From Brumimicrobium mesophilum (lineage in GTDB: Bacteria; Bacteroidota; Bacteroidia; Flavobacteriales_D; Crocinitomicaceae): 64,000 nucleotides of DNA. The notes under the pieces are model-generated. The model saw only the letters and a program-made list of their open reading frames with translations. It was not told the DNA's origin and made no database searches. Below are positions 2,728 through 53,546 of this stretch, in pieces; position 1 is the stretch's first letter; each line of letters begins with the position of its first letter. Made by a program: the position numbers and the translations under genes. The stretch covers positions 1-64,000 of the forward strand of contig NZ_PVSS01000014.1 in assembly GCF_003025005.1 (NCBI RefSeq), given 5' to 3'.

Positions 2728-3807
2728 ATGAAGAAAAAGATTAAAAAAAGAAGGAACAAAAGTAGCCAATTGAAAAAGACTGGTATGTCTCCTGGTACAT
2801 TTTTGTTTACAGGGGAACAAAAGGTAGACAATACTACTTTGCAATTAATCACCTATGACAAATCTGACATTGAAGAAAAATATTTTACAAATATGGAAGC
2901 GCTTTTGACTCAAATGTCAAATACGAATCAAATGTCGTGGTTAAATGTTATTGGACTACACGAAGTAGAAGTAATCAGCAAAATAGCGGAACATTTTCAA
3001 TTACATAGGCTATCAGGAGAAGACATTTTAAGTGTTGGTCAGAGACCTAAATTAGACGAATATGATGATTACATTCATATTGTAGCAAAAATGTTTAGGA
3101 TTGAAGATGAAAACATTGAAGATGAACAAGTAACGATATTATTCGCAGAAGGATTGTTGATCACTTTTCAAGAAAAGGAAGGCGATGTTTTTAATGGTGT
3201 AAGAGAAAGGTTATTTGAATCAAAAGGTCAAATAAGACATCGAAAAACTGATTACCTGGCTTATGCTTTATTGGACTCTATAGTAGATCATTATTTTATA
3301 GCAATAGAACATTTTGGAAATGTCATTGATGAATTAGAGTTAGAATTATTAGAAAATCCATCAGATCAAATTTTACCACAGTTACATGAAGTCAGAAGAG
3401 AGGCTTCATACATAAGGAGATCTGTTTTTCCTATGAGGGAAACTGTAAGTCGCTTTGAAAAATTGGAGGTGCCTTACATGCACAAAGAGACGAAACTATT
3501 TATTCGGGATTTATACGATCATACGTTACAAGTTATTGAATCCTTAACCGTATTTAAGGATACTGTAGGAAGTTTGATGGATTTATACATGAACAGTATC
3601 TCTTATCGCATGAATAATGTAATGAAAGTCCTCACAATTGTATCTACAATTTTTATCCCATTAACCTTTATAGCAGGAGTTTATGGAATGAATTTTTTAG
3701 TTATGCCAGAATTGGAGTATAAATATGGCTATTATTACGCTTTGATTGCGATGGCTGTATTAACTTTGCTAATGATAATTTACTTTAAACGCAAAAAATG
3801 GCTTTAA
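2728..3807 (+). CDS. corA: Magnesium/cobalt transporter CorA
   Basis: CorA is the pentameric Mg2+/Co2+ channel of the inner membrane. The 359-residue length is normal for the family. A long acidic cytoplasmic domain comes first, the helical stalk covers about residues 150-290, and two membrane helices close the protein with the diagnostic YGMN motif at 319-322 between them. The C-terminus is basic (FKRKKWL). The N-terminus carries an unusual Lys-rich leader (MKKKIKKRRNK). The last 10 bases overlap the next gene, so it is probably the first gene of a four-gene operon ending with the AstE-like deacylase. Confidence 0.93.
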   Translation: MKKKIKKRRNKSSQLKKTGMSPGTFLFTGEQKVDNTTLQLITYDKSDIEEKYFTNMEALLTQMSNTNQMSWLNVIGLHEVEVISKIAEHFQLHRLSGEDILSVGQRPKLDEYDDYIHIVAKMFRIEDENIEDEQVTILFAEGLLITFQEKEGDVFNGVRERLFESKGQIRHRKTDYLAYALLDSIVDHYFIAIEHFGNVIDELELELLENPSDQILPQLHEVRREASYIRRSVFPMRETVSRFEKLEVPYMHKETKLFIRDLYDHTLQVIESLTVFKDTVGSLMDLYMNSISYRMNNVMKVLTIVSTIFIPLTFIAGVYGMNFLVMPELEYKYGYYYALIAMAVLTLLMIIYFKRKKWL

Positions 3808-4265
3808 AAAAGAAAGACAAACCCATTAAGAAGGTAAAACCTATTATAGGAAAAGACGATATCGCGGACATGCCTAAGTTTAATTTACAAAATGTGAACG
3901 TAAAAATTGATTCAGGAGCCTATACATCCACAATTCATTGTTCAGATATTGAAAAAACAGATAAAGGATTGAGGGTAATATTCCTTGATGAAAACGAATC
4001 AGGATATACTGGAGAATATGTGTACTTCGAAGAATATGAAAAGAAAAAAGTACGCAGTTCAAGCGGAGAAATGCAATTGAGATACATCATTATGGGAAAC
4101 ATAGTTTTATTTGGAAAAAAACATTCAACAGAATTTACACTTTCTAAACGAGATTTAATGAGATATCCTGTACTTTTGGGAAGGAAGCTATTATCTAATC
4201 GCTTCATGATAGATACAACATTATCAAACGAATCATACAAACATAAAACAACAATTACAAAGTAA
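3798..4265 (+). CDS. RimB-like retropepsin-type protease (PF05618 family)
   Basis: A 155-residue protein of the family long annotated as ATP-dependent zinc protease and now regarded as retropepsin-like (clan AA). The core motif [13 protein letters not shown] carries the likely catalytic Asp38 in a D-S-G-A context, and the C-terminal [10 protein letters not shown] is typical of the family. It overlaps corA by 10 bp, and its stop overlaps the rimK start by one base. In pseudomonads the equivalent gene (rimB) acts with rimK on ribosomal protein S6; a similar role here is inferred from family and context only. Confidence 0.8.
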
Positions 4266-5140
4266 TGAAAATTGCAATATTAAGCAGAAATGCTAATTTA
4301 TATTCAACTAGAAGACTAGTAGAAGCATGTAAAAAAAATGGTCATCATGTGGAAGTTATTGACCACTTAAAATGTAACATTCTAATTGAAGAAGAGCTTC
4401 CAAGGATTTACTATGTAGATCGTTATCTTGAAGGTTTTGACGCTGTAATTCCTAGAATTGGAGCATCAGTTACTTTTTATGGCACTGCAGTTGTTAGGCA
4501 GTTTGAAATGATGAGTGTTTTTACAACTGTTAAATCAAGAGGCCTAGCAGATTCGAGAGATAAACTTCGCTCTTTACAATTGTTAACTAAATCAGGTATT
4601 GGCTTACCTAAAACAGTGTTTACTAACTATTCAAAGAATGTGGAAAGCATCATTGAATCAGCTGGTGGCGTTCCAATAGTAATAAAATTGTTGGAAGGAA
4701 CACAAGGATTGGGAGTAGTTTTAGCAGATTCCAAAAAAGCAGCAACATCTGTTCTTGAAGCCTTTAATGGATTAAAAGCACGTGTAATCGTTCAGGAATT
4801 TATCAAAGAATCAGGTGGTGCAGACATCAGAGCATTTGTAGTTGATGGAAAAGTTGTTGGAGCAATGAAGCGACAAGGTAAGCAAGGTGAGTTCAGGTCT
4901 AATCTTCACAGAGGAGGGTCATCTCACGTTATTGAGTTATCTGAGGCTGAAGAAAAAGCTGCAATCAGTTCAGCTAAGGCATTGAATTTAGGAGTTGCAG
5001 GAGTTGATATGCTTCAATCTAGTCGTGGTCCATTGGTATTAGAAGTAAATTCTTCACCGGGATTAGAAGGAATTGAAAATGCAACACATTTAGATATTGC
5101 TAATGAAATAATTAAATATATAGAAAGAAGCGCTAAATAA
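4265..5140 (+). CDS. rimK: RimK-family ATP-grasp amino-acid ligase
   Basis: RimK enzymes use ATP to add glutamates to the C-terminus of ribosomal protein S6 or to related acceptors. The protein (291 residues) shows the N-terminal RimK fold, the ATP-grasp glycine loop (EGTQGLGVV, about residues 145-153) and the metal-binding LEVNSSPG motif with Glu260 and Asn262. Start and stop both overlap neighbours by one base, implying translational coupling. The acceptor cannot be told from sequence; RimK relatives also make small peptides (for example tetrahydrofolate or F420 tails), so S6 is only the default guess. Confidence 0.88.
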
Positions 5141-6150
5141 TGAAAAAAGCAAAACCCTTAAAGAGAGCTCCCTTCAAATTATTGGGTCATTCAATTGAGC
5201 CTGGTAAAACTACGAGAATAACTTTGGAGGTTGCAAAATTGCATACCAACACCCCTATTCAAATTCCAGTAATAGTAAGTCACGCCAATAAAACTGGACC
5301 AATATTACTTTTACTTGCTGGTTTACATGGTGATGAAATCAATGGAATTGAAGCTGTTAGGCAAATCATTAAAAAAGGTTGGCATAAACCGAATTACGGT
5401 ACAGTAATATGTATTCCCGTTTTCAATATTTTCGGATTTTTAAATTTATCAAGAGAGTTTCCAGATGGTAGAGACTTGAATCGTGTGTTTCCTGGTACCA
5501 AAAATGGATCATTGGCAAGTCAATTCGCTTATATTTTTATGAAAGAAATAGCACCATTGACAGATGTCATTATTGATTTTCACACTGGTGCTTCACAAAG
5601 AAATAATTTCCCTCAAACTAGGGCAGATTTTAGAGATAAAGGATCACGAGAATTGTGTGATGTTTTTGCAGCTCCATTTACTATTGATTCAGCAGTTTTA
5701 GCCAAATCAATTCGAAATTCTGTAACCAAATTGGGGAAAAAATATATTTTATTTGAAGGAGGAAAAGCCAATAGAATTGAAAATTTCGTTGTAAACACTG
5801 CTATAAATGGAACTTTAAGGGTAATGCAGCATTTAGGGATGAGATATTTCGATGTAGAAGACAATGAAGAGCCAAGTCATGTAATTAAGAGAACAAAATG
5901 GATAAGAGCAAGTAGTTCTGGAGTTTTAAACTTGAGGGTTGAAAACGGTCAATATGTTGAGAAAGGCAGTGTTTTGGCTATTATTTCAGATCCTTTTGGG
6001 AAATTTGAACGCTCTGTAAAATCTCCAACGAACGGCTTTATTTTCAATGTAAACGAAATTCCATTGGTCAATAAAGGTGATGCAATTTTTAATATTGGAA
6101 AACGTGACCCTAAGCCCGTTGTTGTGGCAGAAAAGAAGGTAGAAAACTAA
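5140..6150 (+). CDS. Succinylglutamate desuccinylase/aspartoacylase-family (M14-like) hydrolase
   Basis: A zinc-dependent amide hydrolase of the AstE/AspA branch of the M14 fold, 336 residues. Zinc ligands are visible as H63 and E66 in GLHGDEING and H148 in DFHTGA; the substrate-binding DLNRVFPG lies at 112-119 and the catalytic Glu at E206 (LFEGG). Residues about 250-325 form the biotinyl-lipoyl-like C-terminal barrel common in this branch. It is coupled by one base to rimK. The substrate is unknown; context suggests it cleaves amide or peptide bonds made by the RimK ligase. The 3' end overlaps the convergent O-antigen ligase gene by 41 bp. Confidence 0.85.
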   Translation: MKKAKPLKRAPFKLLGHSIEPGKTTRITLEVAKLHTNTPIQIPVIVSHANKTGPILLLLAGLHGDEINGIEAVRQIIKKGWHKPNYGTVICIPVFNIFGFLNLSREFPDGRDLNRVFPGTKNGSLASQFAYIFMKEIAPLTDVIIDFHTGASQRNNFPQTRADFRDKGSRELCDVFAAPFTIDSAVLAKSIRNSVTKLGKKYILFEGGKANRIENFVVNTAINGTLRVMQHLGMRYFDVEDNEEPSHVIKRTKWIRASSSGVLNLRVENGQYVEKGSVLAIISDPFGKFERSVKSPTNGFIFNVNEIPLVNKGDAIFNIGKRDPKPVVVAEKKVEN

Positions 6151-7351
6151 TAAAAAACGCATAAGGAATTATTCCAGCTTGAGTTTCCAGCATTGATTCG
6201 GGTAGTAATGCTACGCATAAAATGCTAATTATTCCTATTCTCCAAGCCCTGTAATTGTCTGGTTTCCTCTTAAGGTAGCTTGTTACAATTGAAAGTAACA
6301 AAAATAAACTTCCAAAGATTCCCAATGCGATATGGGAATTAAAGAATTGATTGTGACTATTCAGTTTTTGTTTTGCAACTCCCGTATAACCTTTATCAAA
6401 ATTTCTTTGAATTAATTCATCTTTAATATCTCCTGTACCTACACCCCACCAAAAATTCTCCTTGATTAATTCTAAGGATGAATCCCAAACCATGATTCTT
6501 GATGCAGTACTTTCGGGATGTTCCTTATCAAAACTATCGATTGATGCATTCATAGAGTTAATGGCAAGGTTTAAACGTCCTGTTATACTAGGAGCTAAAT
6601 AAAAAACAGATGCTATACCAACGGCTAATACTGCTATCGAAACTGGTAGAATCCATTTGTTATTAAACTTTTTGAACAAAGAAATAACCGCCCAAATACT
6701 CACAAAGAATAAAAGGATAAAACCAACTTTAGAACCTGATAGAAAAACAAAAGCAATCATTATTAAAGCTCCAGTAAGGTTTAAAAAAAATGATTTTTTA
6801 TTTTCTGATTCAATCATGAGTTTTAGCAAAAAGAAATAAGCTAAAATCAAATAAACTGCCCAGTATCCACGGTGCATTAGATGAGATAAATGTTCTCCAG
6901 AAATATAATAAACATGCAAGTGTCGTAAAAAGACCTCAGAAGATAAGTAAACGTTATATAGTATAGAAATAAAGGCACCAATGATGAATACTTTCACAAA
7001 TAATTTCCAATTTACCTTTACACTGTAAAGCATAAAAAATAATGGTAAAACCCCTAAAGAAGCTTTCATTCCTAGGTCCATATTCGCAAATTTCATATTT
7101 TCAGAATGAATAAGACCAACTAAATGCAATAAATAGAAGCCTAAAATCCAAATACCCGGATTGCGCCATGAGAATTGTGATTTTAAATAAGATAAATCAA
7201 TTTTAGGACGGCGGATCAATTGTTCAACAATGATCAAAGCAACTGCAACGCCAAGCATTTTTGGACTTAAAGGAATGAAAAAAGCCATAAAGTAAACCCC
7301 AATAGGTCCTTCACTGAATAACTTCCTTAAATTATTTATTAATTTACTCAT
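6110..7351 (-). CDS. O-antigen ligase/polymerase-like membrane protein (Wzy/WaaL family)
   Basis: A 413-residue polytopic membrane protein with about ten hydrophobic segments and a large periplasmic loop around residues 255-335 (SASRIMVWDSS...WWGVGTGDIKD...HNQFF), the pattern of the Wzy_C/O-antigen ligase family. These proteins polymerise surface polysaccharide or attach it to lipid carriers in the inner membrane. It lies 17 bp downstream of the TonB-like gene and is probably the last gene of that operon. Its final 41 bp run antisense into the AstE-like gene. Ligase versus polymerase cannot be decided. Confidence 0.78.
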   Translation of the reverse strand: MSKLINNLRKLFSEGPIGVYFMAFFIPLSPKMLGVAVALIIVEQLIRRPKIDLSYLKSQFSWRNPGIWILGFYLLHLVGLIHSENMKFANMDLGMKASLGVLPLFFMLYSVKVNWKLFVKVFIIGAFISILYNVYLSSEVFLRHLHVYYISGEHLSHLMHRGYWAVYLILAYFFLLKLMIESENKKSFFLNLTGALIMIAFVFLSGSKVGFILLFFVSIWAVISLFKKFNNKWILPVSIAVLAVGIASVFYLAPSITGRLNLAINSMNASIDSFDKEHPESTASRIMVWDSSLELIKENFWWGVGTGDIKDELIQRNFDKGYTGVAKQKLNSHNQFFNSHIALGIFGSLFLLLSIVTSYLKRKPDNYRAWRIGIISILCVALLPESMLETQAGIIPYAFFISFLPSFLPQQRA

Positions 7352-13671: not shown

Positions 13672-15933
13672 ATGGAACTAAACTTTAAAATAATGAAAAC
13701 TTTTGCTTTACTTCTGTTCAATAGTTTCATTTTTCTATTTGTTAATTTTAGTCATGCCCAATTTGGTTTTATTTTCAGCGACAGCATTCAAGTTAAAAAA
13801 GGGGGCAACACATTAGAGTTTCCTTGGGCAGGCGGATTAAATCATGCTCAATTCTCAACTATTGATGTAGATTTTGATGGAATGGAAGATTTATTCATTT
13901 TCGATCGAAGCGCAAATCAAATTCGTATATTCAAAACAGTTCTGCTTAATGGTGTTAAAAGCTATCAGTATTTAAACAACACCAGAGATTTATTCCCTAA
14001 AGATATACGCTATAAGGCTACGATGGTAGACTTCAATGGAGATGGTAAAAAAGACATTTTCACTTATGGCATTGGAGGTGTAAAAGTTTATCGAAATATT
14101 GGAAATGCTGCAATTGGATTACAATGGATCTTGGAAAAATCAGTTCTACAATCAATTTATTCAAATGGTAACTTATCCAACCTTTATGTAAGTTCGATAG
14201 ATATTCCTGCCTTTACAGATGTAGATGGAGATGGCGATACAGATGTATTAACCTTTAATATTGGAGGGCAACAGGTAGAATATCATAAAAATACATCCAT
14301 GGAAAATTATGGGATTCCTGATTCTCTAGAATTTCAACTTGAAGATGCATGTTGGGGAAAATTCATTGAAAGTGACACTGATAATAATATCCAACTAAAT
14401 TCAAACGTTGGGCCTTGCGATCCTTCTAATATTACTTTTCCTCAAAATGGAGTTCGGCATGCGGGCTCAAGTTTGTTAGCCCTTGATTTAAATAATGACA
14501 ATGCTCTAGATTTGATTCTGGGCGATGTTTCACATTATAACTTAACTTCTTTGACCAATGGAGCACTGCCGAATGAAGAGGCTTTAATGACAGCTCAAGA
14601 CCCAAATTTCCCAAGCAACACCACTCCAGTAAATCTTCCAATTTTCCCAGCTCCTTTTTATATTGATGTGAACCATGACGGAATAAAGGATTTGGTAATT
14701 GGCACAAATGCTAGTGGAGGTTCAGAAAACTTAGAAAGTGTTTGGTATTACCAGAATCTAGGTTCGAATTCTAATCCAAATTTTTCTTATGTCAAAAAGA
14801 ATTTTCTTCAAGATCAAATGATAGAAAATGGAAAGGGTTCTATTCCTGTTTTAATTGATTTAAACAATGATGGATTGAAGGATTTATTGGTGGCTTCAAA
14901 TTTTAGATTTTTAGATCCCGCAGATAAAATTTCGAAAATTCAGTATTATCAAAATACAGGTACTGTTGATACGCCTGCGTTCACTTTTATTTCAGACGAT
15001 TGGCTTTCACTGTCAAACGGAGGGTACGGTTTGAGAATGCATCCAGCTTTTGGAGATTTAAATGGAAATGGGCAAGTTGAAATGATTATAGGAACTTCAG
15101 CCGGAAATCTTCATTTATACAACAAAACTGGGAATGGTCCAGAAAATTTTGTGTTGGATCAAATTAACATGACTGACAATTTAGGTCAAGTTATTCAAGT
15201 AGGTGCTTTCGCATCTCCACAAATTTTTGACCTCAACAACGATGGTTTATTGGATATTATTATTGGAGAGAAAAATGCCGGATTAACATTTTATAAAAAT
15301 ATTGGAACTCCTACACTACCGTCTTTTGAATTAATTACAAATGACTTAGGTCAAATAGACATGGGGGAACAATTTATTCCTGATAATTATTCTGTTCCAG
15401 CTTTTGTTCGACACAATGACACAACCCATTTATTTATTGGAAACAGAAAAGGATCAATATATTACTATAGGGAAATCGATGAAAACTTAGAAGATGGAGA
15501 TTCATTTTCATTATTGTCAGATAATTATTCTTTCATAAATACAGGAGCTTATTCTGCACCTTTTATTGATAAAATACATTCTGATGGCAGGTATAGCATG
15601 TTTGTAGGAACGGATTTAGGTGGAATTTGGTCATATATCGCTGGTACTTCAAGTGATCTAATTTTATCAATTAACGAATTAGAAAAAATTGATAAGAAAA
15701 TTAACATTCACCCTAACCCTAGCAAAACTGGACTATTTACAATTAATTTAGGTGAAATTGATCAAGGGTTAAATATAGGAGTTTACGATAATTTAGGTCA
15801 GCTGATTAAAGAAAGTAAACAACTTTGGGGACACGCACACTTGGATTTATCCAATTCAGCGAAAGGGGTTTATACTGTCATTTTTAAAAGTACGACGCAA
15901 TTTGTTTCCACAAAAAGAATTGTGATTCAATGA
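13672..15933 (+). CDS. FG-GAP/VCBS-repeat protein with T9SS sorting domain
   Basis: A secreted 753-residue protein. The signal peptide core begins at Met8 (MKTFALLLFNS), so the real start may be the ATG at 13693. Several Ca-binding-like FG-GAP loops of the form DxDxDGxxD or DLNNDGLLDI recur (for example near residues 64, 125, 184, 281, 340, 400 and 528), consistent with a beta-propeller. The last 70 residues (IHPNPSKTGLFTI ... GVYTVIFKS ... KRIVIQ) are a type A T9SS sorting domain. The protein is therefore probably exported through the T9SS and released or anchored at the surface. A ligand or enzymatic role is not evident. Confidence 0.85.
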   Translation: MELNFKIMKTFALLLFNSFIFLFVNFSHAQFGFIFSDSIQVKKGGNTLEFPWAGGLNHAQFSTIDVDFDGMEDLFIFDRSANQIRIFKTVLLNGVKSYQYLNNTRDLFPKDIRYKATMVDFNGDGKKDIFTYGIGGVKVYRNIGNAAIGLQWILEKSVLQSIYSNGNLSNLYVSSIDIPAFTDVDGDGDTDVLTFNIGGQQVEYHKNTSMENYGIPDSLEFQLEDACWGKFIESDTDNNIQLNSNVGPCDPSNITFPQNGVRHAGSSLLALDLNNDNALDLILGDVSHYNLTSLTNGALPNEEALMTAQDPNFPSNTTPVNLPIFPAPFYIDVNHDGIKDLVIGTNASGGSENLESVWYYQNLGSNSNPNFSYVKKNFLQDQMIENGKGSIPVLIDLNNDGLKDLLVASNFRFLDPADKISKIQYYQNTGTVDTPAFTFISDDWLSLSNGGYGLRMHPAFGDLNGNGQVEMIIGTSAGNLHLYNKTGNGPENFVLDQINMTDNLGQVIQVGAFASPQIFDLNNDGLLDIIIGEKNAGLTFYKNIGTPTLPSFELITNDLGQIDMGEQFIPDNYSVPAFVRHNDTTHLFIGNRKGSIYYYREIDENLEDGDSFSLLSDNYSFINTGAYSAPFIDKIHSDGRYSMFVGTDLGGIWSYIAGTSSDLILSINELEKIDKKINIHPNPSKTGLFTINLGEIDQGLNIGVYDNLGQLIKESKQLWGHAHLDLSNSAKGVYTVIFKSTTQFVSTKRIVIQ

Positions 15934-43966: not shown

Positions 43967-46900
43967 ATGTACATAGTTTTTGATACTGAAACAACAGGTT
44001 TACCTAAAAATTGGAACCTTCCATATACTGACACCGACAATTGGCCAAGATGTATTCAAATTGCCTGGCAATTGCACGATGAAAAAGGTCAGCTTGTTGA
44101 GTCAAAAGACTTCTTAATTCGTCCAGATGGTTTTGATATTCCTTACGATTCGGAGAGAATTCACGGAATTTCTACACTTTTAGCTGAAACTGAAGGTGTT
44201 CCTCTTCGTGAAATGATGGAAGAATTCAACAAGGACTTGGAGCGTTCTCAGTTTATTGTTGGGCAGAATGTTGGTTTCGATATCAACGTTATGGGTTCTG
44301 AATTTGTACGATTGAACATGGAAACGCCAATGCATGACATGCCAATATTGGATACATGTACGGAAACTACAGCTCAGTTATGTCGTATTCCTGGAGGTCG
44401 AGGTGGAAAATTCAAGTTACCCACATTAACTGAATTACATCAGCACTTATTTGACGTTCCTTTTGGAGAGGCGCATAATGCAACTGCCGATGTTGAAGCA
44501 ACTGCTCGCTCTTTCTTCGAATTGGTGAGAAGACGCGTATTCACAGCTCAAGAACTTCAAGCAGAAGAAGCATATATTGAGGAATATTTAGATGCTAATC
44601 CAGATGTTATTCAACCCGTTGGACTGACGCACTTAAATTTGAAACAAAAAAGTGAAGCACTAAAAGCCCAACATGAAACTCAAGAGGAAGTTTCCCAAGC
44701 GGAAATAGAAGAAGGACTTGAAATATTAGCAGAAACTCAGTTTGTTCACCTTCATAATCACTCTCAGTTTTCAGTTTTGCAATCTACGAGTAACATCAAA
44801 GATTTAATTAAGAAAACTGCGGAATACAATATGCCTGCTGTTGCCTTAACAGACACCGGAAATATGATGGCTGCCTTTCACTTTGAAAAGCACATTACAA
44901 ATTTCAATAAAGCTGTAAGAAAGGAACGTGAAGAGGCTGAAAAAGAAGGCAGAACATACAAACAGAATGAAATTACACCAATTATAGGTTGTGAATTTAA
45001 TATTTGTGAAGACCACCTTAACAAAACAGTAAAGGACAATGGATTTCAGGTTGTCTTGCTTGCGAAGAACAAAAAAGGGTACCACAATGTTGCGAAAATG
45101 TCTTCTATTGCCTTCACTGAAGGTAAATATTACGTTCCGCGAATTGATAAAAACGTAGTTGAAAAATACAAAGGAGATATCATTGTACTTTCTGGAAATA
45201 TGTATGGTGAAATTCCATCTAAAATCCTGAACGTTGGTGAAAAGCAAGCTGAAGAAGCAGTTATTTGGTGGAAAGAGCAATTTGGAGATGATTTCTACTT
45301 GGAATTAATGCGTCATGACCAGGAAGATGAAAGACGTGTCAATGAAGTATTATTACGATTTGCAAAAACGCATAATGTGAAACTCGTAGCCACAAATAAT
45401 ACTTTCTATTTGAATAAAAGTGATGCTGCTGTTCATGATATTTTATTGTGTATTAAAGATGGTGAAATGGTGGAAACGCCAAAAGGTAGAGGTCGAGGTT
45501 TCCGATATGGACTTCCAAACGACAACTACTATTTCAAGTCACCAGATGAAATGAAAGAATTGTTTGCAGATTTACCTCAAGCAATAGAAAACACAATGGA
45601 AATAGCCAACAAATGTGAGAAATACACTTTGGCCAGTGATATATTATTGCCCGCATTCGATATTCCTGAAGAATTTACTGATCCTTTAGATTTAGAAGAT
45701 GGAGGAAAAAGAGGAGAAAATAATTACTTGCGTCACTTAACGTATGAAGGAGCAAAACCTAGATATAAGGAAATTACGGATGAAGTTAGAGAAAGGATAG
45801 ATTTTGAGTTATCAGTAATTGAAAATACTGGTTATCCTGGATATTTCTTGATTGTACAAGATTTTTGTCATGCCGCACGAGACATGGGAATTATCGTTGG
45901 ACCAGGTAGGGGTTCTGCAGCAGGTTCTGTAGTTGCCTATTGTAATGGTATTACGAATGTAGACCCTATTGCTTACGATCTACTTTTCGAGCGTTTCCTT
46001 AATCCTGACCGTGTATCAATGCCCGATATAGATATTGACTTCGACGATGAAGGTCGTGGTAGAATTATTCAATGGGTAATTGATAAGTATGGCGCTAATC
46101 AAGTGGCTCAAATTATCACCTATGGAACGATGGCGGCAAAATCATCGATTAGAGATACCTCTCGTGTTTTGAATCTTCCACTCTTCGAAGCTGATAGATT
46201 AGCCAAGTTAATTCCAGATACTTCTTTGAAGAATATTTTTGGCATGGATGCAGCAGATTTATCTGTAAAATTAAAAGAAAACCAGGAAAGTATCACAATG
46301 GCCAATCAGCTAATTGATATTTCAAAAGGTACCGACTTACCCGCGCGGGTACTTGGAAGCGCTCGTAGATTAGAAGGAAATGTAAGAAATACAGGAATCC
46401 ATGCTTGTGGGGTAATCATTACACCTAGCGACATCACAGAATATGTACCTGTTGCATTGGCTAAAGACTCTGAGATGTATTGTACGCAATACGATAACTC
46501 TGTCGTTGAGGAAGCCGGTCTACTTAAAATGGATTTCTTAGGATTAAAGACCCTTACTTTAATTAAAGATGCTGTTGCATTCGTTAAAGATATACATGAT
46601 ATAGATTTAATTCCTGATGACTTTCCTTTAGATGATCTAAAAACATATGAACTCTTCCAACGAGGTGAAACTGTGGGAGTTTTCCAATATGAGTCTCCAG
46701 GAATGCAGAAATACATGAGGGAACTTAAGCCATCAGTATTTGCAGATTTAATTGCAATGAATGCCTTATATCGTCCAGGACCAATAGAGTATATTCCTGA
46801 CTTTATTAAACGTAAAAATGGAGAACAAGAAATTGTTTATGACATTGAAGATTCAAAGGAATACTTGGAGGAAACCTATGGAATTACTGTATATCAAGAG

Positions 46901-48331
46901 CAAGTGATGCTGCTTTCTCAAAAATTAGGTGGATTTACCAAAGGTGAAGCAGATACACTTCGTAAAGCTATGGGTAAAAAGCAACTGAGCTTACTAGCTG
47001 AACTAAAACCAAAGTTTTTAAATCAAGGTGCAGAATTAGGACATAATAAAGGGAAATTAGAAAAAATATGGCATGACTGGGAGGCTTTCGCATCTTATGC
47101 ATTTAACAAATCTCACTCCACTTGTTATGCCTGGATTGCCTACCAAACAGCTTATTTAAAAGCCAATTATCCAGCAGAATATATGGCTTCCGTGTTGAGT
47201 AACAACATGAATGACATCAAACAGGTAACATTCTTCATGGAGGAATGTAAGCGAATGGGATTAGATGTTTTAGGACCAGATGTTAATGAGTCAAACTACA
47301 AATTTACAGTGAATTCGAAAGGAGCTGTTCGTTTTGGTTTAGGAGCTATTAAAGGTGTTGGTAACGGACCAGTGGATGCAATTGTTGAGGAAAGAAAAGA
47401 AAATGGACCTTTTAGGGATATTTTTGATATTACAAAACGCGTAAATTTAAGAAAATGTAATAAGAAAGCATTTGAAGGCTTGGCACTTTCTGGTGCTTTA
47501 GACTCATTTTCAAATGTTCACAGAGCACAATATTTCGTGGAAGAAAACAACAGAACTTTTTTAGCGAATGCTATTAAATTCGGAAGTAACCATCAAGAAA
47601 GTGCGAACTCTAATCAAGTTAGTCTTTTTGGTGAAGGATCTGGTGTTGAAACTCCTGCTCCAAAAATTCCTATGGTTGCAGAATGGTCTTCTCTTCAAAA
47701 ATTGAATAAAGAAAAAGAAGTTGTTGGAATTTACATTTCGGGTCATCCGCTTGATGATTATAGAATTGATATTGATTCTTTCTGTAATGGGAACGTAGAA
47801 TACATTAACAACCTGGAGGAATACAAGAATTTAGAATTTACTGTTGCAGCAATTATCACGGAGGTTGAACACCGACATACAAGAAAAGGTGACCCATTTG
47901 GAACCTTAATGATCGAAGATTATAACGATTCAACTAAATTATTTTTGTTCCGAGAGGATTATGGAAAATTTAGAGATTACATGGTTGAAGGTTCATTTAT
48001 TTTCATGACAGGTAAAGTAATGTCAAAACGATGGAATCAAAATGAATTTGAATTTAAGATTCAAAAGATTGATTTCCTTTCAAGTTTACGAGATCAAAAA
48101 GCAAGTGCTTTAGAATTATCTGTTCCATTAACCGATATTAGTCATACACTAATTGAAGACATTGACAATATTTTTAAGGAGAACGAAGGAAAATTCCAAG
48201 TAAAGTTTAAAATTTATGATACAGTAAATAAACTTGAAATTGAAATGCCATCACGTTCGCTGAAAATTGATATTAACGAGAATGTTTTAAAGACATTGAA
48301 TTCAAAGAATATTGAATATAAGTTGATTTGA
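43967..48331 (+). CDS. dnaE: DNA polymerase III alpha subunit with N-terminal DEDDh exonuclease
   Basis: The replicative polymerase catalytic subunit, 1454 residues against about 1160 for E. coli DnaE. The extra N-terminus is a DnaQ-like proofreading exonuclease (about 1-190): Exo I FDTETTG (Asp6, Glu8), Exo II GQNVGFDINVMG, Exo III HNATADVEATA. A linker leads to the PHP domain (FVHLHNHSQFSVLQS), then the palm with GPGRGSAAGSVVAY and catalytic MPDIDIDFDDEGR, fingers, the tandem HhH region and a C-terminal OB fold. Proofreading is therefore encoded in cis. It converges on porU2. Confidence 0.95.
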   Translation: MYIVFDTETTGLPKNWNLPYTDTDNWPRCIQIAWQLHDEKGQLVESKDFLIRPDGFDIPYDSERIHGISTLLAETEGVPLREMMEEFNKDLERSQFIVGQNVGFDINVMGSEFVRLNMETPMHDMPILDTCTETTAQLCRIPGGRGGKFKLPTLTELHQHLFDVPFGEAHNATADVEATARSFFELVRRRVFTAQELQAEEAYIEEYLDANPDVIQPVGLTHLNLKQKSEALKAQHETQEEVSQAEIEEGLEILAETQFVHLHNHSQFSVLQSTSNIKDLIKKTAEYNMPAVALTDTGNMMAAFHFEKHITNFNKAVRKEREEAEKEGRTYKQNEITPIIGCEFNICEDHLNKTVKDNGFQVVLLAKNKKGYHNVAKMSSIAFTEGKYYVPRIDKNVVEKYKGDIIVLSGNMYGEIPSKILNVGEKQAEEAVIWWKEQFGDDFYLELMRHDQEDERRVNEVLLRFAKTHNVKLVATNNTFYLNKSDAAVHDILLCIKDGEMVETPKGRGRGFRYGLPNDNYYFKSPDEMKELFADLPQAIENTMEIANKCEKYTLASDILLPAFDIPEEFTDPLDLEDGGKRGENNYLRHLTYEGAKPRYKEITDEVRERIDFELSVIENTGYPGYFLIVQDFCHAARDMGIIVGPGRGSAAGSVVAYCNGITNVDPIAYDLLFERFLNPDRVSMPDIDIDFDDEGRGRIIQWVIDKYGANQVAQIITYGTMAAKSSIRDTSRVLNLPLFEADRLAKLIPDTSLKNIFGMDAADLSVKLKENQESITMANQLIDISKGTDLPARVLGSARRLEGNVRNTGIHACGVIITPSDITEYVPVALAKDSEMYCTQYDNSVVEEAGLLKMDFLGLKTLTLIKDAVAFVKDIHDIDLIPDDFPLDDLKTYELFQRGETVGVFQYESPGMQKYMRELKPSVFADLIAMNALYRPGPIEYIPDFIKRKNGEQEIVYDIEDSKEYLEETYGITVYQEQVMLLSQKLGGFTKGEADTLRKAMGKKQLSLLAELKPKFLNQGAELGHNKGKLEKIWHDWEAFASYAFNKSHSTCYAWIAYQTAYLKANYPAEYMASVLSNNMNDIKQVTFFMEECKRMGLDVLGPDVNESNYKFTVNSKGAVRFGLGAIKGVGNGPVDAIVEERKENGPFRDIFDITKRVNLRKCNKKAFEGLALSGALDSFSNVHRAQYFVEENNRTFLANAIKFGSNHQESANSNQVSLFGEGSGVETPAPKIPMVAEWSSLQKLNKEKEVVGIYISGHPLDDYRIDIDSFCNGNVEYINNLEEYKNLEFTVAAIITEVEHRHTRKGDPFGTLMIEDYNDSTKLFLFREDYGKFRDYMVEGSFIFMTGKVMSKRWNQNEFEFKIQKIDFLSSLRDQKASALELSVPLTDISHTLIEDIDNIFKENEGKFQVKFKIYDTVNKLEIEMPSRSLKIDINENVLKTLNSKNIEYKLI

Positions 48332-48401: not shown

Positions 48402-51400
48402 TCACCTCATCAAGTACATTTTTCCCCAATTCTTTTTGAAGTATTGATCTGCACCTGTTTCTCTATGTTTGATATCTTCACCGTTGATTTTGGCTTTCAT
48501 TCGGTACAAATAAACACCATTCGCCAATGGATCTCCAAATTCATCTCTACCATCCCAAGCATATTCTGTGATGTTTCTACCAATTCTAATAAATCCTAAT
48601 TCATCTTCGGTAATTTCTCGAACAATTCTTCCAGTTACCGTCATAATTTGGATAATCATGTCTTCAGGAACTTCAGTACCAGTTAACGTAAACACAAATC
48701 TAGTAGATGTAGAAAATGGATTAGGGTAATTCATTAAATGAGTTATCGTTGACTCTAAAATCACTTCAAATTGAATTCGGTATTCAATATCTCCAGAAAG
48801 ATTTCCAGAGTTATCAGATCCCTGAACCATCAATTCATATACTCCACTTTCTTCAAATTCTGCGTTGTAGATAATTTCGAACCTTAAATCTGTACCATTC
48901 GCAGGAATCCAAGTCAAAATTTGATTTCCATTTCCATCGATAAAAGGAACACGTTTTTGATCACCATTCGGATGCGTTAAGAAAATTCCAAAATTACTCG
49001 TATCCGCATCATTATTCATCATTAAGAATGGATTTTCATCTTTTAAACCAATGACTATTTCCGCTTTTGGACTTACAATATCGCCGTTCAAAATATGTTC
49101 ACCATCAAAAGTAACATCCAAAATAGGATTGACGTCATCCACTTTTAAGAAGAATGAAATTTGCAATAGATTATTGAAATGCGCCAATTCTGGTTGATCC
49201 TTTAATTGATTATTAACCCCTTTATTGTATGGGTTAACTTCCATCCAAAAGGTGTTTTCACCCGATAAACCTTGAGTTGAAAATTGCACAGTATCTCTTA
49301 AAACCTGCCCTGGTCTCAAAGAATCTTGACGCATATAATTAATAGGATGTTTAACTTGATTTTTATCTGTTATCCAATAATTCACCAATAATGAATCCAT
49401 TGATAAATCACTTATATTTTTCACATCAACTGCAAAAGACATTTCAATACCTTCTTGCAATGAATCTCCTTGATCGGGTAAAAATGCATATCCAGCTGAA
49501 CCATCAATTGCGGCTTCAGGCAGAGGTTGATATAATACATGCCATCTGTCCACTTGCGCTGGAGTTAGTGTTATTTTATCATAATACTTAGCTTGCAATT
49601 GCAGATATGGGTAGTCATTTGCAGAAAGAATAGTATTGAAATTTTGGATAGAATCGTTGTTGGAAAACACAGTATCAATCTCAATTTGGAATTGTTTATT
49701 GTGATCGTACCCCTTAATAACTAACCTAGTAGAATCATTCACAGGAGTTTCCATAGAGCTTTGTTTCCAATAAATGGTTTGCCATTCCGCTGCCGGACCA
49801 ATTAAAGTAGAAGACTCTATTCCACTACCTACTGAACCAGAAAAGGTATTTGCTAAACTAATGAATTCCCCTGAATTTTGAGCATGAATAGTCATGGCCG
49901 TACTTGGATCCCCTTTTTCATAAATAAAAATAAAGGCTCTATCAGGTGATGAAGGTGACATTCCAGTTGCACCAGCATTTTGTAAAGTCGTAAATAAACT
50001 TGGGTGAATGGATTGCCATTGACTATACAAAGCTCGCATTGTAGTATATATCACTATGAAATGTCCATCTGGAACTTCATTCGCAATCATATTTTCAAAT
50101 GCTTGAAGTTGTGATGCAGAGTTTTGACGAAAAATAAAATAATTCTCTACACGAGTTCTACATGAAGCACCATTGTTAGCATTTCCAAATTGATTATTTA
50201 CATTAACCCCGTTATAAAAACTTCCCCACGGAGCTTGGGTAGAAGGGTCAACAACACCTACATGTAAGGAAGGTGAAGTTGTACATAAACCATATTCTGC
50301 ATCTTGCCCATTTACAGACCACAATGTGGAGTTATATTTGAAAACTGAATTTGAATTATCATAAACTTGAGCAGCTAACTCTATTTGTTGTGTTGCGAAT
50401 TCTCTTTTTCTTGGAGTTCTTTCATAAGAAACTCCATTAAAATCACTGTTTTTAAATTGAAAGAAATGATCTTGTCCCCAACCCGTTTTATTTGGAATAT
50501 ATTGGAAAGAATGCTCTGTCCAACTATAAACACTTGAATCTATAGAAACCCTCCAAAAATAAGCTACGCTATCTTCTAAAATCAAGGGAGAATTGGAATT
50601 ATTTGAAACCCTCCTCCAATCATTTGGGAAAACTTCTTTTACACCACCAGTTCCACTTTTTACAGCATATTTTAGAAATGGACTATTAAATAAATCAGTC
50701 GTATCAATTTCAAAACGATAAGTATTAAAAGAAGCTATGGGATTAATCGTTGAAGCTTTCAGAACTATAGAGTCATTTGGTACAACTGCATAATTATATG
50801 GCAATACAGGCATTATTCCGTCAATATTTAGAAAGTAATCAATTTTAACTTCATTATTTTGAAATTCATCGTACTGTTCTGGAACAAAAGATGGTAAATC
50901 TGCTTGAATTGTAAATTGATTCACTCCAGAACCTATTGAAGCTTGCAAGGGCATATTGAATTGAATAGTATCTCGATAATTCAATCCATATATTGATAAA
51001 TTATAAACCGAATCAATAGCTGAATTAGGAAAACCTCTAGTTATTGTCAATCCAAATGTATCGGTTACGCTTCTACCAAGATTTGTGAGAACAACATTTA
51101 CTGTAATTGAATCAGTAGACAAATTAACTTGAGAAGGAGTAAAATAAACATCTTGAATTGTTAAATCAATTTCAGGCTTAGCATGCCAATTCAATTTGAT
51201 CATTGGGTCAGCATGTAATATCATTTGCATTGCCGTTACCTCAGTCAAGAAACTAGGATTTACAATTTCTAAATTGCGTATTGTCGTGGACATTTGAGCC
51301 CCCAAAGATGCGCCATAATTATCTGGACTCATTTGTCTATATAACTCCGCAGAATATAGATTCAAATAAGAAGCATATCCTAATTTAGAAGAGGAAAGAA

Positions 51401-53546
51401 AGCCTATGGCACCTAAATCCTCTAAAAGGACAAAACTCTCGGCCGTAGAACTATTATCTGATTTAAAAATATCTCCAGTGTAGCATCCGTTTCCAATTAC
51501 CATCGGATATTTCCCAGTATTATTCCAATTTTCAGGATCGTCAATATTTTGATCGAATCCATCACCTGTGGCATGTCCAAAGAAAGTCATTAATGAAACT
51601 CCATTTTCTAGTAATTCACGCACTTCAGAAGATTGTACAGGATTAAATGGATTTGAAGTTTCTTTAAAATATGAAGTAACATTCCCTCCGTAATCTGGAC
51701 CTTCAATGGAATTTTTCATACCATTAAGGTAAGATTGCAAAAGTGACTGTTCCTGAGATGTTGAACCACCTCCAAAATGGATAACTTGTTTTTGCCATTC
51801 TTTTAACTCTTTATTATAAACAGCATTTTGATTTTGCGTAGCTTCAAAAATCTTAACTTTTTGCAAATACATATTCAACTGTTCATTGTTATTGGCTGCA
51901 ATTCTACCTGTTGGAATTTCAGGTTTCATGCTGATGGATCCATTCCATTTGGCAGTTATACAAATATCACTAGAAGGAGAACCATAACTTGGTACAATAT
52001 TCAAACTGTTCACCGCAGCATTCTTTCTCGGTGCCCCTGCTGAACTTGTGTTTGGATCACTGGCCTCTGAAATCGCCTTACCTGCTATAAATAATGCTAC
52101 AGGTTTTAAAGTTGAAATGTTGTAAATATGATTAATAGCGCGACGACTTCCTAAAATATGTTTTGGAACTCCCCCTCCATATTGCATCCATGCATCGTTC
52201 ACTTCTAACATCACAACATTATATCCTCCTCCATTTGGAGTTTTACGGTAAGAAGAATATTGGGTCGCAGAAGATAACATTTGCTGATTATATAATAAAA
52301 TATATGCCGCTTCAACGTTAATTTGACTATAATCCGTAAAAACTCCAGTTCCATTTACGGCCGAAATTGAATTAATCTCTTTAATATCAGCATCTGAGGT
52401 AATAATTAATTTTTGATTTGCACCATTCACTGAATTTGGAATTAAAACTTGCCAAACTCCCCCATTGTTTGTGATCGGAATTTTCCGAGCATTTAGATTT
52501 CCAAAAACATAAGCAGTAGGATTAATTAAATTAGAAGCTGAAATATCTAATCTACTTTTTGCTTGAGTGCCCGCACTACGAACTTCCCAGTCAATAGATG
52601 TTTCATTTGAATTAGGTATACGAGGATATTCAACAGAGACATAACTCACAGATTGAAAATCCGTTGAAGCTCCTTGATCACCTATAATTTTAAAAAATGC
52701 ATTGGTTGTTCCATTCGAAAGAATACTTGGGTTGAAATTCTTATTAACTGAAGTCTGCCTATAACCTATAAAAATTTCATCATGCATTTCCGTCCCACTC
52801 GAACCAAGTTCCCATCTTAAATGATGATTTCCTGACCCTGAAAAACTAGCATTTGAATTGGCATTAGATTTAGCATGGAAACTTGCATCTGGAGCTCCAA
52901 CCCCAGTATAAACATCAGGTGTTGGAACTGGAATAGTTAAAGTATAATTAGAGGCCCCATTATAATTTGGTCCGCCCCAACCTTCACCTGCAGAGAAAAA
53001 TGAACTATAAGATGAGTATGCCGAAAAACCACCATAATATTGCACATGATAATCTAAAATAGACTTTTCAAGAACATAAGATGAAGGAGAATAAATTGAA
53101 TAATTGACATCTGTTTCAATTAAAAATCGTTTAGCAGTACCTGTAGTCCACGTTAAAAAATAGTATAACGAATCATTATATAATGAATAAGCTGGATTCC
53201 CAATATCGTCTGGGGAGTTATACAGTAATGAATCTAGCCATCCATCATTAGACTCTGCATAAAATTCAATGTAATCTCCTACATTAATAACATTATCTCC
53301 ATTGTCATTCACAAATAGAGGAAGCTCTTTTTCCTTACCGAAAATTTGAAATTTATTCGCTGCTATAGTATTCACTGGAACACCTGCATTAACCAATGTT
53401 TGATATGAAAGTTGGTAAACACCATCCTCTGCCACTCCAAACTTGTAATATTTTTGGTTGTAGTCTATCCATTCATTCCCATATGGCTGAGCCCATACGA
53501 ATGTTATGGTTAGAAAAACTGATAATAAGGTAGTTATTATACGCAT
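48402..53546 (-). CDS. porU2: T9SS C25 peptidase, PorU2-like sortase
   Basis: A 1714-residue secreted gingipain-fold protease. A signal peptide (MRIITTLLSVFLTITFVWAQ) precedes N-terminal beta domains; the C25 catalytic domain (about 440-790) carries the His658 (MTFFGHATGDG) and Cys688 (IGNGCYTGD) pair with normal spacing. Long Ig/CARDB-like regions follow, and the C-terminus has NYPNPFSTSTRF ... WDGRDEFGDPLANGVYLYRMKA, a FlgD-like/sorting module. PorU cleaves sorting domains from T9SS cargo; this larger paralogue is usually called PorU2. It lies 27 bp downstream of the PorV-like gene. Confidence 0.78.
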   Translation of the reverse strand: MRIITTLLSVFLTITFVWAQPYGNEWIDYNQKYYKFGVAEDGVYQLSYQTLVNAGVPVNTIAANKFQIFGKEKELPLFVNDNGDNVINVGDYIEFYAESNDGWLDSLLYNSPDDIGNPAYSLYNDSLYYFLTWTTGTAKRFLIETDVNYSIYSPSSYVLEKSILDYHVQYYGGFSAYSSYSSFFSAGEGWGGPNYNGASNYTLTIPVPTPDVYTGVGAPDASFHAKSNANSNASFSGSGNHHLRWELGSSGTEMHDEIFIGYRQTSVNKNFNPSILSNGTTNAFFKIIGDQGASTDFQSVSYVSVEYPRIPNSNETSIDWEVRSAGTQAKSRLDISASNLINPTAYVFGNLNARKIPITNNGGVWQVLIPNSVNGANQKLIITSDADIKEINSISAVNGTGVFTDYSQINVEAAYILLYNQQMLSSATQYSSYRKTPNGGGYNVVMLEVNDAWMQYGGGVPKHILGSRRAINHIYNISTLKPVALFIAGKAISEASDPNTSSAGAPRKNAAVNSLNIVPSYGSPSSDICITAKWNGSISMKPEIPTGRIAANNNEQLNMYLQKVKIFEATQNQNAVYNKELKEWQKQVIHFGGGSTSQEQSLLQSYLNGMKNSIEGPDYGGNVTSYFKETSNPFNPVQSSEVRELLENGVSLMTFFGHATGDGFDQNIDDPENWNNTGKYPMVIGNGCYTGDIFKSDNSSTAESFVLLEDLGAIGFLSSSKLGYASYLNLYSAELYRQMSPDNYGASLGAQMSTTIRNLEIVNPSFLTEVTAMQMILHADPMIKLNWHAKPEIDLTIQDVYFTPSQVNLSTDSITVNVVLTNLGRSVTDTFGLTITRGFPNSAIDSVYNLSIYGLNYRDTIQFNMPLQASIGSGVNQFTIQADLPSFVPEQYDEFQNNEVKIDYFLNIDGIMPVLPYNYAVVPNDSIVLKASTINPIASFNTYRFEIDTTDLFNSPFLKYAVKSGTGGVKEVFPNDWRRVSNNSNSPLILEDSVAYFWRVSIDSSVYSWTEHSFQYIPNKTGWGQDHFFQFKNSDFNGVSYERTPRKREFATQQIELAAQVYDNSNSVFKYNSTLWSVNGQDAEYGLCTTSPSLHVGVVDPSTQAPWGSFYNGVNVNNQFGNANNGASCRTRVENYFIFRQNSASQLQAFENMIANEVPDGHFIVIYTTMRALYSQWQSIHPSLFTTLQNAGATGMSPSSPDRAFIFIYEKGDPSTAMTIHAQNSGEFISLANTFSGSVGSGIESSTLIGPAAEWQTIYWKQSSMETPVNDSTRLVIKGYDHNKQFQIEIDTVFSNNDSIQNFNTILSANDYPYLQLQAKYYDKITLTPAQVDRWHVLYQPLPEAAIDGSAGYAFLPDQGDSLQEGIEMSFAVDVKNISDLSMDSLLVNYWITDKNQVKHPINYMRQDSLRPGQVLRDTVQFSTQGLSGENTFWMEVNPYNKGVNNQLKDQPELAHFNNLLQISFFLKVDDVNPILDVTFDGEHILNGDIVSPKAEIVIGLKDENPFLMMNNDADTSNFGIFLTHPNGDQKRVPFIDGNGNQILTWIPANGTDLRFEIIYNAEFEESGVYELMVQGSDNSGNLSGDIEYRIQFEVILESTITHLMNYPNPFSTSTRFVFTLTGTEVPEDMIIQIMTVTGRIVREITEDELGFIRIGRNITEYAWDGRDEFGDPLANGVYLYRMKAKINGEDIKHRETGADQYFKKNWGKMYLMR

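Follow-up and report, generated by a model that had tools for sequence, protein, structure and literature searches.

A conserved M14 zinc hydrolase gene accompanies rimB and rimK in Bacteroidia: candidate enzymes of a poly-α-L-glutamate cycle

The corA–rimB–rimK–M14 locus

The window (the whole stretch of DNA analysed here, bases 1–64000 of a 121,716-base contig in the 3.88-Mb genome of Brumimicrobium mesophilum) carries four overlapping genes on the forward strand: corA (2728–3807; 359 residues), the first of the set, for a CorA-type Mg2+/Co2+ channel; a rimB-like gene (3798–4265; 155 residues) for a retropepsin-like aspartic peptidase with the catalytic D38-S-G; rimK (4265–5140; 291 residues) for a RimK-type ATP-grasp α-L-glutamate ligase; and a gene (5140–6150; 336 residues) for an AstE/AspA-type M14 zinc hydrolase, below called M14. 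The open reading frames (ORFs) on this strand confirm the overlaps of 10 bp (corA/rimB-like), 1 bp (rimB-like/rimK) and 1 bp (rimK/M14) that a first-pass annotation, made from the sequence alone, had reported. At its 3′ end the M14 gene also shares 41 bp (window 6110–6150) with the 3′ end of a convergent ORF (6110–7351, reverse strand). A Bacteroidota-type promoter pattern matches the window five times against 7.07 expected, with no match upstream of corA.

The CorA protein matches PF01544 in Pfam (5.5e-69) and exceeds the NCBIfam equivalog threshold of TIGR00383 (307.5 bits against a cut-off of 200.75); its translation carries YGMN, containing the GMN motif, and it is the sole CorA match in its genome at E ≤ 1e-30. 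The peptidase lies above the gathering score of PF05618 (Zn_protease; 2.2e-17, 63.7 bits against 27) and below the threshold of the RimB equivalog NF052261 (63.3 bits against 200); by these scores it resembles RimB without qualifying as a curated equivalog. RimK matches PF08443 (2.8e-64) and Rimk_N (PF18030, 2.1e-41) in Pfam, scores above the curated S6--L-glutamate ligase equivalog threshold (PRK10446, 369.1 bits against 331), and aligns over residues 1–289 to residues 1–289 of the Pseudomonas RimK structures 7qyr (9.2e-109) and 7qys (2.3e-105). Judged by a weak but clear match to TIGR02068 (1.7e-15, 56 bits, far under the family cut-off), it is also related to cyanophycin synthetase. The M14 protein matches AstE_AspA_cat (PF24827; 3e-28, 99.1 bits against 25) and, at 90.2 bits against the 402.7-bit cut-off of TIGR02994, is not a DoeB equivalog. 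Its closest named relatives, among the best-scoring stretches listed, come from metagenome-assembled genomes of Flavobacteriales (72–75% identity).

Co-occurrence of M14 with RimK

Profiling of 119 genomes of the class Bacteroidia (the class sample) for M14, RimK, RimB and CorA found M14 in 42 genomes from 22 families, RimK in 59 and RimB in 57. One genome (G001), with two matches of 27–30% identity, was dropped from the M14 set before the counts were made; another (G071), 86% complete and bearing a 108-residue M14 fragment, was retained; no other M14 genome lacks RimK. RimK is therefore present in 41 of the 42 M14 genomes, against 18 of the 77 that lack M14 (one-sided Fisher P = 1.4e-16, with related genomes treated as independent), and accompanies RimB in all 57 cases. 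The genes also lie together: a distance of at most 1.5 kb on one strand separates RimB from RimK in 42 of 57 genomes and RimK from M14 in 24 of the 41 genomes that have both, and the contiguous order RimB–RimK–M14 occurs in 22 of the 119 genomes (13 families), that of the window included.

In a second set, the best 80 of at least 568 confirmed M14-bearing stretches (the named loci), RimK is found at 63 loci, RimB at 42 and the contiguous trio at 42; the RimB/RimK counts are 42/63 by one ORF caller and 43/64 by another. Where RimK directly precedes M14 (62 loci), the gap is 10 bp or less in 47, of which 16 overlap, start codons having been set mechanically. The genomes of the 17 loci without rimK all have RimK elsewhere, in 15 cases in frames of 455–524 residues, the length of a RimB–RimK hybrid; PF05618 was found in the same frame in all four of those examined. 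This M14 clade thus almost always comes with RimK in the same genome, even when the genes have parted. The genomes behind 18 of the 21 loci with RimK and without RimB (all except L106, L127 and L157) were searched for RimB: none was found in 12, a hybrid-length frame was present in 4 and a separate gene in 2, several of these genomes being metagenome-assembled and perhaps incomplete. Given the 12 genomes in which no RimB was found, the RimK–M14 pair seems able to persist without RimB. In three Aequorivita loci (L138, L139 and L143) the order is RimK–RimB–RimK–M14, with rimB between two rimK copies.

The trio also recurs in Gammaproteobacteria, one alphaproteobacterium and one cyanobacterium. 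The order RimB–RimK–M14 is present on plasmid or chromid records of Salinivibrio proteolyticus, S. kushneri, Acaryochloris and Phaeobacter, and the order RimK–M14–RimB on those of Vibrio europaeus and V. nigripulchritudo; in Photobacterium sp. DA100 the trio was found by our own search of an unannotated stretch. The first-pass annotation had expected the trio to co-occur in related genomes, and the neighbourhood survey bears this out in the class sample, in the named loci and in distant phyla. Within the flanks examined, no RimK was seen beside the M14 homologues of Haladaptatus, Haloferax, Legionella, Deinococcus and Pukyongiella (at most 33.4% identity) or beside one V. parahaemolyticus plasmid homologue (41.9% identity, in two frames), and no M14 was seen in the flanks of the RimK or RimBK-length proteins of Leisingera, Allocoleopsis, Aureibacter, Thioclava, two Vibrio records, one Aeromonas and one Halomonas record. 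On the V. europaeus plasmid, a diguanylate cyclase gene (L162:1319-3040) ends 28 bp before rimK, which recalls rimA, the cyclic di-GMP phosphodiesterase gene of Pseudomonas.

Other conserved neighbours of the class loci were taken as synteny: a flavin-dependent (FAD) oxidoreductase (PF01266 in one member) lies near 12 of 41 loci and is divergent at all except two of them, and the next clusters reach 4 loci. Apparent RimK fusions in three genomes of one family (f10; frames of 373–941 residues) were taken as spurious, because the added parts are low-complexity translation, after which an internal start agrees with that of RimK itself.

Conservation of active sites

Nine M14 residues are kept in all 124 sequences from RimK-bearing genomes or records (at least two genomes being represented twice): H63, E66 and H148, which we take to be the zinc ligands, E206, presumably the catalytic glutamate, and N114, R115, R105, R161 and R192, presumably substrate residues, all by analogy with carboxypeptidase A and aspartoacylase. 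By this assignment the M14 protein retains a complete zinc and active site. In a pairwise alignment with the 6twm sequence, DoeB lacks an arginine at the positions of both R161 and R192. DoeB 6twm is nonetheless the top solved match of the M14 protein by sequence (4.8e-19) and the second by fold: the predicted M14 model (predicted local distance difference test score (pLDDT) 92.8) aligns best, in VIA-align, to 3cdx (Z 35.7), DoeB 6twm (35.0) and 3na6 (34.4). Among enzymes whose substrate is named, CphZ (8ein; Z 26.9), the cyanophycin dipeptide hydrolase, comes next, followed by the catalytic domain of the Helicobacter carboxypeptidase Csd4 (19.5) and by succinylglutamate desuccinylases and aspartoacylases (17–19).

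The Pseudomonas RimK structure paper gives S7, R8, S14, R64, S68, R189 and N262 as contacts to a resolved poly-glutamate chain (PMC10092738). RimK of the window has all seven; across 65 sequences, six positions are kept in 65 and R8 in 59. In RimB, K36, D38, G40, R95 and R118 are invariant in 30 of 30 sequences. The residues of RloA described as touching poly-glutamate are K46, R114 and R137 (PMC12239564). RimB K36, R95 and R118 align to the corresponding K/R/R of RloA2, and on our own mapping of the numbering onto RloA they appear, probably, to correspond to these poly-glutamate-contacting residues. The predicted RimB model (pLDDT 93.4) has as first matches the Lpg0085 and RloA structures, followed by viral retropepsins.

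Ribosomal protein S6 as acceptor

The acceptor of RimK in E. coli, ribosomal protein S6 (RpsF), ends in glutamate. The C terminus was read in 90 of the 114 class genomes with an S6 match, including all 56 RimK genomes with a match. S6 ends in glutamate or aspartate in 0 of 39 genomes with both RimK and M14, in 3 of 17 with RimK and without M14 (all glutamate, from one family, f40), and in 3 of 34 without RimK; in the window's genome it ends ...AKAEAK, and in the RimK-bearing Klebsiella and Aeromonas records used as controls it ends Glu-Glu. The authors of a 2025 paper in the Journal of Biological Chemistry likewise mention RpsF proteins without a C-terminal glutamate (PMC11957791). The first-pass annotation had pointed to S6 as the glutamate acceptor; with no such end in any of the 39 genomes, S6 is an unlikely acceptor, and this lineage probably does not modify S6 in the known way. 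On the evidence of these C termini, ‘S6--L-glutamate ligase’ is probably a misnomer for RimK here. In the window's genome the second gene after that of S6 (L158:2178-2624) encodes a presumed bL9, which ends Glu-Glu, unlike S6, and is a possible alternative acceptor.

CorA and other ion-transport genes

CorA lies within 20 kb of RimK in 1 of the 44 class genomes that have both, and this one is the window's own; the script required the same strand, and when the listed contigs were read by eye for both strands, no further pair came within 20 kb. Three of the 80 named loci have CorA. Two are those of the closest relatives, L078 and L079, where the corA and rimB genes share 10 bp; in the third, from Pricia (L087), corA is found downstream of M14. 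CorA was thus rejected as a core member of the unit, of which the first-pass annotation had made it a regular part. The link to Mg2+ drawn there fares somewhat better: of the 7 species outside Bacteroidota whose trio loci were examined, 6 have genes for MgtE, a CorA-family protein, MscS or an antiporter close by, which supports an ion link weakly, with CorA itself being a local feature. These neighbours are MgtE and MscS in Salinivibrio, MgtE-CorA-MscS-Usp in V. europaeus, MscS in V. nigripulchritudo, ZntB and PsiE in Phaeobacter, and a cation:proton antiporter in Acaryochloris; no ion-transport neighbour was found at the trio locus of Photobacterium sp. DA100. Ion genes are few at the Bacteroidota loci, with MscS and an Na+/H+ exchanger each at 2 of 40 class loci and MscS at 3 of the 80 named loci, all three in Fulvivirga.

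Discussion

We propose, with about as much confidence as doubt, that the presumably co-transcribed genes form an operon for a poly-α-L-glutamate cycle plus a Mg2+ channel, with M14 as the glutamate-chain hydrolase. With ATP, RimK would link glutamates through α-peptide bonds into chains that are free or attached as a tail to an acceptor other than S6; RimB would cut the chains internally; and the M14 zinc amidohydrolase would turn the α-glutamyl oligomers (dipeptides or chain ends) into free glutamate. As an endopeptidase leaves oligomers, a glutamate-releasing zinc hydrolase would close the cycle, much as the AstE-like CphZ acts after cyanophycinase in cyanophycin breakdown. RimB of Pseudomonas is described as a poly-glutamate endopeptidase that also stimulates poly-α-glutamate synthesis by RimK (PMC11957791, PMC7343187), and the dipeptide hydrolase that finishes cyanophycin breakdown is annotated ‘succinylglutamate desuccinylase/aspartoacylase’ (PMC10206079). 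That an AstE-like enzyme trims tails made by RimK had been suggested in the first-pass annotation; the writer and eraser relation stands as the best reading because the trio co-occurs widely, RimK (and probably RimB) keeps its poly-glutamate contacts and the M14 active site is complete, while S6 as the bearer of the tail is given up.

The locus resembles several known systems without matching any. Like rimBK or rimABK of Pseudomonas, it pairs a RimK ligase with a retropepsin-like RimB, and the RimK proteins align over residues 1–289 with the poly-glutamate contacts kept; it differs in the conserved M14 gene, in having no rimA among its four genes, in a RimB scoring far below the RimB cut-off and in belonging to a lineage whose S6 lacks the C-terminal glutamate. 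The cyanophycin cycle (CphA, cyanophycinase and CphZ) likewise has a synthetase with a RimK-related ATP-grasp part, a peptidase that cuts the chain and, for the last step, a zinc hydrolase of AstE-like type, whereas here the polymer would differ, RimB is an aspartic peptidase and M14 has no statistical link to CphA. From DoeB/EutE, the N-acetyl-diaminobutyrate deacetylase, M14 is set apart by its sub-threshold equivalog score, by R161 and R192, and by its association with RimK. The tubulin pair TTLL/CCP, an ATP-grasp-type writer and an M14-clan eraser, is alike in outline to RimK and M14; the CCPs, however, form a different M14 branch, and the bacterial CCP 4b6z aligns to residues 17–233 only of the M14 model (Z 17.3). 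The Rlo system of P. aeruginosa (RloA/B/C) again joins a retropepsin-like peptidase to an ATP-grasp protein and is reported to act on poly-glutamate in vitro (PMC12239564). RloA has a signal peptide and the operon partner RloB, whereas RimB of the window is partnered by M14 and has no signal peptide by eye.

Several observations weigh against a glutamate-chain hydrolase. A search of the literature found no biochemistry on this M14 clade, and one of its closest solved relatives, DoeB, acts on a small N-acyl amino acid as a deacylase, the others bearing no more than family names. RimB alone removes the tails in Pseudomonas (PMC7343187), so that a second eraser is not strictly needed. M14 is missing from 18 of the 59 RimK genomes of the class sample, and in 17 of the 41 genomes with both, RimK and M14 are apart or on different contigs. 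R161 and R192 do not mark the RimK-linked clade uniquely, since they also occur in 4 and 5, respectively, of 9 M14 relatives unlinked to RimK. Pairwise protein distances over 19 loci do correlate after correction for S6 (partial r of 0.63 for RimK–M14, 0.61 for RimB–RimK and 0.70 for RimB–M14, each at the floor of 2000 permutations), in favour of the reading, but we count this as supporting evidence only, because S6 is short and a poor proxy for species distance. Finally, a 5-formyltetrahydrofolate cyclo-ligase gene follows M14 in 54 of the best 80 named loci (for example L096:5948-6511, with 53 further loci of L078–L157; PF01812 in the two members examined).

This last neighbour raises the question of whether RimK might lengthen, and M14 trim, the glutamate tails of folates. 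The cyclo-ligase and M14 genes overlap by 1–8 bp in three of seven loci inspected, the adjacency is kept even where rimK has left as a RimBK-length hybrid, and the models of MptN and CofF, by name coenzyme α-glutamate ligases, score under their cut-offs on RimK of the window, which we count on the same side. The cyclo-ligase was not seen, however, at 40 class loci (22 with M14), in the window or at 22 plasmid loci (14 with M14), and its position beside M14 looks like synteny shared by Flavobacteriaceae and their near kin; a role in folate metabolism is therefore, in our estimate, very unlikely. Hardly better placed, and still quite unlikely, is an N-acylated glutamate dipeptide made by RimK from which M14 removes the acyl group as aspartoacylase or DoeB does. 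The nearest solved folds of the M14 model, 3cdx and DoeB, would fit such a substrate, and the mammalian RIMKLA/B are reportedly N-acetylaspartylglutamate and citrylglutamate synthases (Collard 2010); yet RimB, the relative of a poly-glutamate endopeptidase, would be left without a role although the trio is present in 22 class genomes and 42 named loci, and RimK has kept its poly-glutamate contacts.

More credible than these, if unlikely in itself, is that RimK tails a specific protein other than S6 with α-glutamate, that RimB and M14 remove the tail and that poly-glutamate arises in free form as a by-product. Three adjacent genes, including one for a second hydrolase, would suit a tightly reversible tag, and the action of RimK and RimB on tails has been demonstrated for Pseudomonas RpsF (PMC7343187, PMC11957791), but no acceptor is visible here, the C termini of S6 given above speaking against the one that is established. 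The idea that M14 is the missing cyanophycin dipeptidase of Bacteroidota, with an incidental link to RimK, draws on the full cyanophycin synthetase encoded in the window's genome (1244 bits; contig C56:222107-224692), on the fold shared with CphZ and on the description of the final dipeptidase of Bacteroidota as undiscovered (PMC10206079). It was rejected as extremely unlikely, since the synthetase is found in 19 of 42 M14 genomes and 34 of 77 others (P = 1.0), and with near-equal frequencies M14 does not simply serve cyanophycin.

The poly-glutamate cycle may, more speculatively, have a physiological setting: RimK, RimB and M14 could form a complete reversible store of poly-α-L-glutamate, comparable to cyanophycin, through which the cell would buffer its glutamate and counter-ions against changes in salinity. 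We regard this as rather unlikely. Polymerising glutamate would lower the number of osmotically active particles and depolymerising would restore it, while linked Mg2+ transporters and mechanosensitive channels (CorA in the window) would adjust ions to the same end. The identifier K03284, a Mg2+ uptake system, we take to be corA (from the reference given in the paper concerned). Together with rimK (K05844), it is listed as commoner in brackish than in marine genomes (PMC10219603), and in Photobacterium damselae at low salt (1% NaCl) rimK is 52-fold and mgtE 5.35-fold up (PMC10308900). Deletion of rimB in P. aeruginosa left hypo-osmotic growth unchanged (PMC12239564), which counts against a role in salinity, as does the scarcity of ion genes at the Bacteroidota loci. 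Were the store real, the metabolic cycle would be the older function and S6-based ribosome modification a use that particular lineages have made of it.

RimK and RimB are already known; what appears new is the conserved third enzyme of a rim operon, in a setting where the textbook acceptor seems excluded. Curated models name such RimKs S6 ligases, and yet nearly all sampled RimK genomes lack a suitable S6 end and most keep the third enzyme. We found no paper on the RimB–RimK–M14 trio in the open literature; a survey of ATP-grasp neighbourhoods by Iyer and colleagues (Mol Biosyst 2009) may already list this one. If M14 does act on Glu-Glu or poly-glutamate, this could redefine the function of RimK outside proteobacteria and could reveal that common bacteria of marine and fresh waters run a glutamate polymer cycle.

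Other features of the window

Elsewhere in the window, 43967–48331 encodes a DNA polymerase III α-subunit with an N-terminal RNase_T exonuclease domain in one protein. A large C25-family peptidase (48402–53546), an FG-GAP protein with a Por secretion tail (13672–15933) and an SprB-repeat protein (2–2569) make up a type IX secretion setting.

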